Position numbers and translations under genes: made by a program. DNA of 36,500 bases from an uncultured Treponema sp. (GTDB lineage: Bacteria > Spirochaetota > Spirochaetia > Treponematales > Treponemataceae), in contig CAMKDH010000003.1 in the NCBI GenBank assembly GCA_946411215.1, positions 1 to 36,500 of the forward strand, given 5' to 3'. Of the stretch, positions 6,461 through 15,607 are shown one piece after another (position 1 is the stretch's first letter; every line of letters begins with the position of its first letter). The notes beneath the pieces are model-generated. The model saw only the letters and a list, made by a program, of their open reading frames with translations, made no database searches and was not told the DNA's origin.

Positions 6461-6528
6461 GTCCCAACCCTTTGTTAAATATTATCACAATAAAGGCTTT
6501 TTCGCAAATATAATATGCCTTTATCATA

Positions 6529-6660
6529 GAAAACAGCTGGCTTCCGCGTAATCGTGTCAGCAAACTACTGCTAGCGCTGTATGGTAAACCATATATCTCG
6601 CTTCGCTCGGCAGCGCTAGATGTAGTTTCCTGCCCCGATTCCGCTCCACCATCTGTTTTC
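6529..6660. repeat. 132-nt palindromic element, copy 1
   Basis: Starts GAAAACAG and ends CTGTTTTC; inner arms CTAGCGCTG/CAGCGCTAG; central ATGGTaaACCAT hairpin. Confidence 0.9.
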
Positions 6661-6708
6661 AAGTGTTTTTTATAAATATTTTCCGCAAATATAATATGCC
6701 TTCATATG

Positions 6709-6840
6709 GAAAACAGCCGGCTCCCGCGTAATCGTGTCAGCAAACTACTGCTAGCGCTGTATGGTAAACCATTTTTCTCGCTTCGCTCGGCAGCGCTAGA
6801 TGTAGTTTTCTGCCCCGATTCCGCTCCGCCATCTGTTTTC
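6709..6840. repeat. 132-nt palindromic element, copy 2
   Basis: Same length and near-identical to copy 1, exactly 180 bp downstream. Confidence 0.9.
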
Positions 6841-6955
6841 AATCTATTTTAATATAATATTTGCGAAAAAGATTTATTTAAAAAAAACTAAACTCACCCA
6901 TGATAAACACCGAAAAACAAGTATAAAACCTATAGTGTGTTTATGGGGTGTAATT

Positions 6956-9664: not shown

Positions 9665-9705
9665 ATTGAGTTGAAAATCAATAATATGGGATGTATAATT
9701 ATTTC

Positions 9706-12700
9706 ATGAAGAAAATAATTTGCATCCCATTTTTTTTAGCAGCATTCTTTCTTATAGCATCTTGTAAAGGCACTGTAACTCCCGAAAATCCGGATGATTC
9801 TCAAAATCAAAATCACGAACAGCAGGAAAATCAGGATTCTTCTATTATAAACAAGTTTTTCTGGGGAACCTGGGTACGCATGGATAGCGGTGCCGTTTAT
9901 GTAATTGATGAAAGTCAGATTACAGTTTACAAAAAAGATTCTTCGGAAATTTCAAATGTTTATGATGCAGTTTCTTCTACAGAATCAGAATTATCAGTAA
10001 GTGGAATTGGTAAGTTCACAAAACAGTCCGATTCTGTTATTCAAAATAATGCCATTCCATTTTTCAGAAAGGGTGGTTTTAATCTTTCTTACAGCATGAA
10101 GCTTGTAGGTTTTGAAGATACAGTTTCAAGAGCTGCATCGTCAATAACTCCTGGTAGCGTAAAGGTAAAAGCAACTTCAAAGAAATATAAATCCTATAAA
10201 AAAGAAGCCGAGCCAACAGACGACGGTGTAATAAATCTTACTGCCCCGGTTTCCGGCGATGAGCAGACAGTAACAGTTTCTACAAAAGATACCGTGCTCG
10301 TTATTCCAGAAATCAAGATTGAAAACGACGGCTCAGATATGGGAACAATTCCTGTAACAAATCCGGGCGAATACAGCCTTAAAGTTACAGGTGTAATTAG
10401 TGATGATCAAAAAGATGACGGTTATTTATATGGAAACAATCTTAAAACTTATACCATGACCCTAACCATTACAAATATCAGCGAAGTAACTTCAGAAACC
10501 TCTGCCTGTGAAATAAAAAGTGAAGATCCTCAGCTAAAAATCACAGACGAAAATGGTGCCGCTTTAAATGCAATTACTTTTTCAACCTTAAAACCAGGCC
10601 TTACAAAAGAAATCAAACTTAAAGTAACCTATGGAACTATTGACAGCGGTTATGTTGACACAGGTCTAAATATAAACATTAGAAATCTGGAAACAGGTAG
10701 AACCTGGAAAGACTATGTGCCATTAAGATTTTTCAGAGGAATGCTCCCGATTACTGTTTCTGCAAAAAGCACAGAAAACAATAAAGATGCAGCCTTAAAC
10801 GGTTTTGTAATTTACCCTGATTATAATTCCCAGTTCTTTGATATTCAGCACGGTACTTCTAAAACTCTCTATGTTCCTGATTTTGGTAAGGATAAAACTT
10901 ATATACTTTCTTTCAGCGGAGCCACTGTAGAAGGTGAACTTTCTGCAAGTACCGAAATGTTTTATGTTGTAAATCCCGGCTCAACAGAACAGGATTATTT
11001 TACAATTCCAACAACAACAGACGACTTAATGACCTGCTATAATTACGGCGAACCTAACGACACCGAATTTGATGCAGTTGAAGTTTCCGATAAATTCACA
11101 GCGTACCTTAATGACGGTGATATTGATTTCTTTTCTGTAAAGATTGATTATGATGATTTTATCTTCCCAGATAAAGCTCTTAAGTATAGGGTTACTTTTG
11201 AAGACCCACTTAATAAGAAAAACTGTACTGTAAAATTATTTAAACCTGGCGAAAAATTAGGACAGTCTCTTTCTAGAAGCGATTATTCCTGTCCAGAAGG
11301 TTACCAGTCCTTTTCGGGCTGGTTTTTGAATAATGAAACATGGAATATAACGGAAACTTATGTTGTTAATAGTAATATAACTCTTTATGCAAGATATATA
11401 CCAAAAAATTATACAATTACTTATAATTTGAATGATGGTTCCTATACTAAAGTAACTGGATTATATACGATAGAAGAAGAAAAGCAATTATATATTCCTA
11501 CCCGTGAAAATTATATCTTTAAAGGCTGGTATGATTCTTCTGATTTTTCCGGGAACCCCATATTGTCGATTCCTTTGGGATCTTTTGGCGATAAAAGTTT
11601 TTATGCAAAATGGGAACCAGTAAAATATAATATTGTTTATAATCTGAATGGAGGAATACAATCAGACTTAAATCCCGATTATTACACAATAGAACAAAAA
11701 ATAACTCTTTCTTCTCCTGTGCGTTCTGGATATTATTTTGTTGGTTGGTATGAAAAATCAGATTTTTTCTGTAATAAAATGACAGAAATTTCAAAGGGAA
11801 CATCTGGTGATATAACTTTATGGGCCTGTTGGGATGATGTAATACCACAGAATAATACTGCTACGGTTTATAACATAATTTATAATCCTAATGGCGGAGT
11901 TTTCGATTCTCAATCAAATGTTCATCGTATCTTTACTTCAGATTGTACTGATATTGATTTGGAACCTCTTGTGCGTGAAGGATATATTTTTGAAGGGTGG
12001 TATACAGAAGATACATTTGAAAATAAAATCGATAAAATTCCAACGGGTAGTACACAAGATTATTGTCTTTATGCAAGATGGGGTATAAAAGTATTCCCCG
12101 AAACATTATATACCTTTGCTCAAAATTCTTCATTATATGATGTTGTTTATTATGAAGGTGGATTGTCAGCGGAAGTTTTACAAGTTTTAAGTGATAATCT
12201 TCCTGACAATAAAAAATTAGATTTATCAAATACAACTGGTTTATCTGTGCTTAATTATAAGTCTTATACACAAGGTGGTTATTACACTTCGTATTTTTCA
12301 TCTTGCAAAGCTGTAGTGTTACCAGATTCGTTAATAAGTATTGATAAATGTGCATTTGTAAGTTGTTTATTGTCAGAAATAATAATTCCGGGCAATGTTG
12401 AAAATATTGGTCAATCAACATTTTCGGGGTGTAGGTCTTTGAAAAGGATAACAATTCCAGATAGTGTTACAAATATTGGCAGTTATGCCTTTGATCATTG
12501 CAGTTCATTAGAACAAATAACAATACCAGAAAATGTTACAAGTATTGATTCCAGTGCCTTTGATGGTTGCAGTTCATTAACAAAAATAACAATACCTGAA
12601 AGTGTTACAAGTATTGGTAGCAGAGCCTTTTATGGCTGCAGTTCATTAACAGAAATAACAATTCCAGATAGTGTTACAAGTATTGGTTTCAGTGCCTTTT

Positions 12701-13308
12701 ATGGTTGCAGTTCATTAACTGAAATAACAATACCTGAAAATGTTTCAAGTATAGAAACCAATACTTTTTATGGCTGCAGTTCATTAACAGAAATAACAAT
12801 ATCTGAAAATGTTTCAAGTATAGGAAGCGATGCCTTTTCTGGTTGCAGTTCATTAACAGAAATAACGATACCTGAAAATGTTACAAGTATTGGCAGTCAT
12901 GCTTTTTCTAGTTGCAGTTCATTAACAGAAATAACAATCCCTGAAAATGTTACAAGTATTGGCAGTTATGCTTTTTCTGATTGTAGTTCATTAAAACAAA
13001 TATCAATACCAGAAGGTGTTAAGGGTATCGAATCTGAAACATTTGAAGGTTGTTCTTCATTGATTCAAATAACAATACCAATAGGAGTTACAAGTATTGG
13101 AAGCTATGCATTTGAAGATTGTAGTTCATTAAAAGAAATAATAATACCACAAAGTCTTTCAAGTATTGAATCATCGGCATTTAGAAATTGTTCGAAACTT
13201 AAAAAAATCAATTATAATGGTACCAAAACCCAATGGAAATCTGCATGGAATTCTTATTTCCCTTCTGGCGCAACAGTCTACTGCACCAACGGAAATATTT
13301 CTTTATAA
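9706..13308 (+). CDS. Lipoprotein with InlB/Listeria-Bacteroides repeats and C-terminal BspA/TpLRR-type leucine-rich repeats
   Basis: MKKIICIPFFLAAFFLIASCKG lipobox; GWYDSSDFSGNPI...FYAKWEPVKYNIVYNLNGG repeats; about ten 23-aa GCSSLTEITIPENVTSIGSxAF repeats. Track start is 9691; ATG at 9706 fits the signal peptide. Confidence 0.92.
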   Translation: MKKIICIPFFLAAFFLIASCKGTVTPENPDDSQNQNHEQQENQDSSIINKFFWGTWVRMDSGAVYVIDESQITVYKKDSSEISNVYDAVSSTESELSVSGIGKFTKQSDSVIQNNAIPFFRKGGFNLSYSMKLVGFEDTVSRAASSITPGSVKVKATSKKYKSYKKEAEPTDDGVINLTAPVSGDEQTVTVSTKDTVLVIPEIKIENDGSDMGTIPVTNPGEYSLKVTGVISDDQKDDGYLYGNNLKTYTMTLTITNISEVTSETSACEIKSEDPQLKITDENGAALNAITFSTLKPGLTKEIKLKVTYGTIDSGYVDTGLNINIRNLETGRTWKDYVPLRFFRGMLPITVSAKSTENNKDAALNGFVIYPDYNSQFFDIQHGTSKTLYVPDFGKDKTYILSFSGATVEGELSASTEMFYVVNPGSTEQDYFTIPTTTDDLMTCYNYGEPNDTEFDAVEVSDKFTAYLNDGDIDFFSVKIDYDDFIFPDKALKYRVTFEDPLNKKNCTVKLFKPGEKLGQSLSRSDYSCPEGYQSFSGWFLNNETWNITETYVVNSNITLYARYIPKNYTITYNLNDGSYTKVTGLYTIEEEKQLYIPTRENYIFKGWYDSSDFSGNPILSIPLGSFGDKSFYAKWEPVKYNIVYNLNGGIQSDLNPDYYTIEQKITLSSPVRSGYYFVGWYEKSDFFCNKMTEISKGTSGDITLWACWDDVIPQNNTATVYNIIYNPNGGVFDSQSNVHRIFTSDCTDIDLEPLVREGYIFEGWYTEDTFENKIDKIPTGSTQDYCLYARWGIKVFPETLYTFAQNSSLYDVVYYEGGLSAEVLQVLSDNLPDNKKLDLSNTTGLSVLNYKSYTQGGYYTSYFSSCKAVVLPDSLISIDKCAFVSCLLSEIIIPGNVENIGQSTFSGCRSLKRITIPDSVTNIGSYAFDHCSSLEQITIPENVTSIDSSAFDGCSSLTKITIPESVTSIGSRAFYGCSSLTEITIPDSVTSIGFSAFYGCSSLTEITIPENVSSIETNTFYGCSSLTEITISENVSSIGSDAFSGCSSLTEITIPENVTSIGSHAFSSCSSLTEITIPENVTSIGSYAFSDCSSLKQISIPEGVKGIESETFEGCSSLIQITIPIGVTSIGSYAFEDCSSLKEIIIPQSLSSIESSAFRNCSKLKKINYNGTKTQWKSAWNSYFPSGATVYCTNGNISL
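12420..13160 (+). repeat. Tandem ~69-bp coding repeats (LRR units), near-identical in the centre
   Basis: Recurring ggttgcagttcattaacagaaataacaatacctgaaaatgttacaagtattggc...gcctttt units, also conserved at synonymous sites. Confidence 0.9.
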
Positions 13309-15475: not shown

Positions 15476-15607
15476 GAAAACAGCTGGCTCCCGCGGAATC
15501 GTGCCCCCAAACTGCGGCTAGCGCTGTATGGTAAACCATTTATCTCGCTTCGCTCGTCAGCGCTAGATGCAGTTTGGGGTCCCGATTTCGCTCCGCCATC
15601 TGTTTTC
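15476..15607. repeat. 132-nt palindromic element, copy 3
   Basis: Same boundaries and length as copies 1 and 2; middle stem changed on both arms (CCCCAAACTGC / GCAGTTTGGGG versus CAGCAAACTAC / GTAGTTTCCTG). Confidence 0.9.

Follow-up and report, generated by a model that had tools for sequence, protein, structure and literature searches.

The window analysed here, a stretch of 36,500 nucleotides that forms an entire contig (C3) of an uncultured Treponema MAG (2.52 Mb, 75% complete), carries three copies of a 132-nt palindrome, and the question that they raise is whether such an element is a mobile DNA repeat, a MITE- or REPIN-like palindrome, or a structured RNA. The positions and lengths given in the original prediction are exact on rechecking (Table 1). 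The long imperfect hairpin with a side hairpin, ATGGTaaACCAT, was also found; under DNA folding the z values range from -6.1, for the window strand of copy 1, to -11, for the opposite strand of copy 3, and 0 shuffles reach the same stability. An AAAACAG-N90..120-CTGTTTT end pattern has four occurrences in the window where 0.05 are expected, and three of the four are copies 1–3. The middle stem of copy 3 is CCCCAAACTGC/GCAGTTTGGGG, that of copies 1 and 2 is CAGCAAACTAC/GTAGTTTYCTG, and all three two-sided changes described between them are correct. A fourth difference in this stem leaves copies 1 and 2 mismatched (C opposite C or T) where copy 3 has a C-G pair. The single ortholog of copies 1 and 2 in the nearest relative, G121, also has C-G at this position, and since both copy 3 and this ortholog keep the pair, the mismatch is a decay in the window's own genome.

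Copies 1 and 2 are the products of one 180-bp tandem duplication, G121 having a single copy, and an outer inverted repeat encloses the two copies together. The copies had been placed in intergenic regions beside minus-strand gene starts, which lie at distances of 68 and 83 nt, but plus-strand ORF starts are also near, 94 and 36 nt from the copies, and both sites are divergent intergenic regions. Elsewhere in the window, an ORF at 13441-14274 matches the PD-(D/E)XK nuclease family transposase PF12784 (E 6e-8) and adjoins a gene for a BspA-type leucine-rich-repeat protein at 9691-13308.

Table 1. Coordinates of the palindromic copies and associated features in the window, and loci of a second hairpin family in related genomes.
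Feature	Position	Strand	Remarks
Palindromic element copy 1	6529..6660	+ (orientation of model R1; minus strand folds better)	132 nt
Palindromic element copy 2	6709..6840	+	132 nt; 180-bp tandem duplication product with copy 1
Palindromic element copy 3	15476..15607	+	132 nt
Tandem duplication, left unit (~180 bp)	6498..6678	+	repeat families D1 and D2
Tandem duplication, right unit (~180 bp)	6679..6869	+	repeat families D1 and D2
Outer inverted repeat, left arm	6497..6516	+	I6, 95% complementary over 20 nt
Outer inverted repeat, right arm	6852..6871	-	I6
Conserved apex CTCGCTTCGCTCG, copy 1	6597..6609	-	minus strand CGAGCGAAGCGAG, holds d(GCGAAGC)
Conserved apex, copy 2	6777..6789	-	
Conserved apex, copy 3	15544..15556	-	
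Second hairpin family, L227	G019:C49:11500-12300		opposite orientation to G122
Second hairpin family, L225	G122:C10:18600-19600		opposite orientation to G019
Second hairpin family, L224	G121:C121:3300-4000		

The element is not confined to the window. BLAST with the 132-mer finds 13 strong places in the MAG, or about 16 copies when weak ones are counted, and further copies in G019 and G008. The covariance model R1 detects the element in 37 of 98 Treponema genomes, at 1–31 copies per genome. In a sample of 146 genomes from the order, which includes members of the genus, it gives a single weak match (E 2.6e-5) outside Treponema. In a pattern search the relatives with names are ruminant or gut Treponema; one of them is the isolate T. 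bryantii NK4A124, with one copy on a contig (L196). The element family is limited to ruminant/gut Treponema. No earlier description of the family in Treponema was found in the open-licence literature. The palindromes form a real, structure-conserved repeat family that is apparently undescribed. For annotation, the family accounts for many of the long palindromes in rumen Treponema assemblies, and it lies at contig ends in G111.

The core of the element is an imperfect hairpin of 127–150 nt with four stems. Above an outer stem of ~14 bp and an internal loop come stems 2 and 3, separated by a small loop, and then stem 4, which a TG/AT loop separates from stem 3. The basal internal loop, which reads CTNCCGC on the left and GCTCNCG on the right of the plus strand, is conserved across copies. 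The apex is two-lobed and features a weak side hairpin (GGTAAACC, GGAAGATTTCC, or similar) and an almost invariant CTCGCTNCGCTCG, and on the minus strand it contains GCGNAGC. The sequence d(GCGAAGC) is an extraordinarily stable DNA mini-hairpin, and such a mini-hairpin is employed in aptamer papers. In more distant lineages the stems have hardly any sequence in common with the copies of the window, whereas the loops and the apex are kept. Additionally, the terminal sequences vary (GAAAACAG, AAAATCTG, TAGAGTAAAAG, GTTTTGTG), each with its own complement; the element ends in GAAAAC..GTTTTC and others, and the 5' flank is loosely TCATRTG. A pattern search of the window's own genome for simple outer hairpins of the form AAAANNGCTCCG..CGCNNTTTTT found none.

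Pairing of the stems has been maintained while their sequence changed. Because part of stem 2 is misplaced in the initial MAFFT alignments, covariation was counted on model-fitted alignments of 38 distinct copies, one of which is a reverse-strand match of L011. Such alignments lean towards the structure, but the controls stay low: the covariation score is 0.551 compared with 0.168 ± 0.009 for shuffled alignments and ≤0.10 with slid partners. Two-sided changes are present in 36 of 42 pairs, and 323 cells are two-sided versus 12 that are one-sided, counted over related copies so that the cells are not independent. The stem substitutions are still compensatory in this larger alignment, and selection for pairing, as first proposed from three copies, is strongly supported. 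Orthologous copies show the same pattern; between G019_C96 and G122_C19, with an upstream flank that is 94% identical, 8 pairs differ two-sidedly and 1 one-sidedly.

Young copies are different. The paired sites of 18 young copies in G111 vary in 11 kinds, all of which are one-sided and 0 two-sided, and window copies 1 and 2 also feature one-sided changes relative to the single G121 copy, which shows that pairing is lost first and regained later. The regain may proceed by selection, by template switching from arm to arm, or by the loss of unpaired copies. Template switching between arms is a mechanism that has been described for RNA stems (PMC8794818). Template switching alone is insufficient here because the mismatched loops are conserved and the strands are asymmetric. 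The family is a test bed for the origin of compensatory change in DNA hairpins, by selection or by template switching. Three ortholog pairs, G019_C46/G122_C42a, G019_C60/G122_C21, and G019_C47/G119_C69, have no core differences; the flanks in these species are mostly 77–97% alike, and other orthologous elements are strongly diverged. Either local exchange or uneven constraint would account for this difference between orthologs, and the three identical pairs imply that some copies are conserved or exchanged and are not simply moving.

The type of base pair distinguishes between DNA and RNA as the level at which pairing is kept. G-U intermediates are common in RNA stems, and in a control set of 29 distinct SRP RNA hairpin sequences of the genus G-U makes up 8.7% of cells. 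In the palindromes G-U accounts for 0.8% of plus-strand cells and 1.0% of minus-strand cells (counted as A-C on plus), and one-sided differences amount to 3% versus 16% in the SRP RNA hairpin. The rarity of G-U on either strand thus indicates that pairing is kept between DNA bases. The two strands are not equivalent. Of 80 elements, 74 fold more stably as the minus strand with DNA energies (p = 5e-16) and 70 do so with RNA energies, the energy models treating G-A pairing and cruciforms only approximately. Pyrimidine-pyrimidine mismatches (C-T) on the plus strand, which are G-A on the minus strand, are found in 62 cells, compared with 2 cells for the reverse. Pairing at the DNA level in combination with this asymmetry points to a minus-strand single-stranded DNA hairpin as the functional form, and the modelled folding asymmetry is consistent with a single-stranded DNA mobile substrate. 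The family provides a clear natural example of apparent selection on the secondary structure of DNA instead of RNA, with dozens of alleles, orthologs from sister species, and an RNA control from the same genomes.

Comparison of orthologous intergenic sites shows turnover, although insertion boundaries are defined only approximately and not to the base. The site of copies 1 and 2 holds one copy in G121, a copy with other arms in G119, and a different hairpin of ~150 nt in G019 and G122, and is empty in G008, G123, and G124. The site of copy 3 is empty in G019, G119, and G122 and is occupied by other hairpins in G008 and G121. The ~150-nt hairpins belong to a second family, AAAAAATGGC..GCCATTTTTT, that shares orthologous intergenic sites with the 132-nt element and includes side palindromes, e.g. 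GTGGGCTAGCCCAC, together with a shared AGTTCCAAGGC (Table 1). A third kind of ~115 nt, AAAAATCTTATCTGGCGGGCCCC..TAAGATTTTTT, is found at the orthologous site of copy 3 in L232 (G008:C201:41000-41600). Elements are also nested: at G000:C4, an element at L012 777-907 lies inside the arms of another at about L012 739-944, and the ortholog in both G019 and G119 is a single element. The flanks of the elements form further inverted repeats, and 25 of 35 exceed the 95th percentile of mismatched flank pairs (p about 1e-19).

The highest copy number, 31, is found in G111, where the hairpin is embedded in a larger element that has inverted ends of its own; because the expansion rides in this larger element, it does not demonstrate that the hairpin moves by itself. 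The larger repeat (L095-L105, e.g. L097 and L099) is ~230–650 nt long with ends TAGGTTTAAATTAAAG..CTTTAATTTAAACCTA, has many copies that are often at contig ends, and looks like a separate MITE family. The same genome contains adjacent repeats at L101 6925-7010 and 7382-7460 (G111:C186), each encoding a short hydrophobic peptide (MTIYEIFSLAINLAILILSLLSYLDKKE, MTKYEKISLAISIALLILSLLSYFKM) with similar promoters upstream, which resemble type I toxin genes.

Gene context was determined for 59 element-bearing loci, 44 of which could be classified by a crude ORF call. The flanking genes are divergent at 15 sites, convergent at 7, and tandem at 22, and a role as a terminator was rejected because convergent sites are a minority (7 of 44). 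At the 22 tandem sites the minus strand points the same way as the genes 18 times, or about 15 times out of 20 once orthologs are merged, which is suggestive only. This co-direction is explained by neither the DNA model nor GC skew. Elements of the IS200/IS605 type prefer one replication strand; the Treponema hairpin, in contrast, has no such preference by GC skew (39:29).

On balance, the family probably consists of non-autonomous mobile palindromes that act as a single-stranded DNA hairpin, a reading that draws on the covariation, the rarity of G-U, the strand asymmetry, and the turnover. In this mechanism the minus strand would be exposed as a single-stranded DNA hairpin in replication, repair, or transcription, and a postulated protein would read the loops and the apex, not the stems, and would move or copy the hairpin to intergenic positions, frequently at the centre of other inverted repeats. 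Changes in a single arm would lower activity and could later be compensated, aided by template switching between the arms; such later compensation would leave old copies with paired changes and young copies with single ones. The family suggests that Treponema has a hairpin-handling enzyme that has so far escaped recognition. It is conceivable, but only a tentative proposal, that the element is coded by structure, with a Treponema recombinase recognising the folded minus strand by its internal loops and GNA apex and leaving the stem sequence free. If this were true, the element would be the equivalent of an attC site that is dispersed and has no cassettes, handled by an enzyme other than the known Y1 and integron types, and several hairpin families would compete for the same intergenic sites.

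A structured RNA, in which the minus strand would be transcribed in untranslated regions and act in mRNA processing, stability, or regulation, is rather unlikely. The clear folding preference for one strand and its tendency to run with the genes of tandem pairs fit this part of the original prediction, but G-U is ~10x rarer than in SRP RNA, an Rfam search of the palindromes gave sub-threshold noise and no family match, placement is not fixed 5' or 3' of genes, and presence is patchy, with unrelated hairpins replacing the element. Covariation limited to Watson-Crick pairs is what arm-to-arm copying would yield, and two-sided changes do dominate even at orthologous sites, so that a passive palindrome family, spread by a past event and kept paired only by template switching around a functionless hairpin, has also to be weighed. 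This reading is quite unlikely given the conservation of the apex and of the mismatched internal loops in copies whose stems have little sequence in common, the strand asymmetry, which symmetric copying would not give, and the lack of two-sided change in young copies.

The preferred reading of mobile single-stranded hairpins also has to be set against known mobile systems. The original prediction of a MITE- or REPIN-like element holds as a likeness, since the copies are dispersed, intergenic, present or absent between species, and nested, but not as membership. An ordinary MITE, derived by deletion from an insertion sequence and moved by a DDE transposase recognising terminal inverted repeats, would be compatible with the inverted ends, the intergenic location and copy number, and the G111 hairpins inside an element with fixed ends, and the many dispersed non-coding copies with presence/absence between relatives are MITE-like. 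It is nevertheless very unlikely: the ends are inverted but not fixed in sequence and differ between copies, and no target duplication is present at the element edges for k = 2–8, shifts of up to 16 nt giving no consistent excess. No mobilising transposase was identified among Y1 enzymes, integron integrases, and phage and plasmid collections. The window's own genome, at 75% completeness, has 0 Y1 transposases, and Y1 is above cut-off in 22 of 98 genomes with an overlap of 8 with element genomes versus 8.3 expected, so Y1/RAYT was rejected as the mobiliser because its distribution is independent of the element. Carriage by phages or plasmids was likewise rejected; the collections contain none, and three loose pattern matches in viral contigs gave 0 confirmations by the covariance model. 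Finally, the elements might be integron attC sites scattered through the genome, since attC sites likewise function as hairpins of the folded bottom strand and vary in sequence, and 28 of 98 genomes of the genus contain an integron integrase above cut-off. This is extremely improbable, because integrase and hairpin genomes overlap in 13 cases versus 10.6 expected, the covariance model finds no hairpin near the integrases examined, the window's own genome has no integrase above cut-off, and the resident attC array of G099 uses a different motif of ~63 nt with CATAACAA/TTGTTATG ends.

In its possible mode of working, the family may resemble REP/REPIN, ERIC, and attC by analogy. REP/REPIN sequences with RAYT are GTAG-tagged intergenic palindromes (PMC3733652, PMC3116915). 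They share with the Treponema hairpin the intergenic location and alternative complementary stems, and are thought to move as single-stranded DNA hairpins; however, the Treponema hairpin is several times longer, has no terminal GTAG or near variant, and has no Y1/RAYT association, and G-T pairs, common in REP stems, are at about 1%. CGTC-tagged REPs, including Rickettsia palindromic elements, have been reported from Spirochaetes among other phyla (PMC3733652). These are likewise palindromic repeats with no dedicated transposase, but the Treponema copies read have no terminal CGTC and feature a longer, compound internal-loop architecture. ERIC, with a ~127-bp enterobacterial consensus, is an imperfect palindrome of similar length for which no mobilising gene is known, and ERIC and Correia copies share their sequence. 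The Treponema copies, in contrast, share loops and apex only and belong to a different phylum, ERIC being compared by description only. ERIC and Correia elements (reviewed in PMC10969869) are mostly intergenic, as is the Treponema hairpin. The likeness to integron attC sites is that one strand folds and that structure is conserved more than sequence; the Treponema hairpin differs in having no RYYYAAC/GTTRRRY (AAC/GTT) boxes, no gene cassettes, and no cassette array next to intI, and the integron examined uses a different site. This integron, at L282 7885-11946 (G099:C1), carries attC-like sites of about 63 nt, CATAACAAAGGTTCGTAGCC..GGTACAACCAGTTGTTATG.
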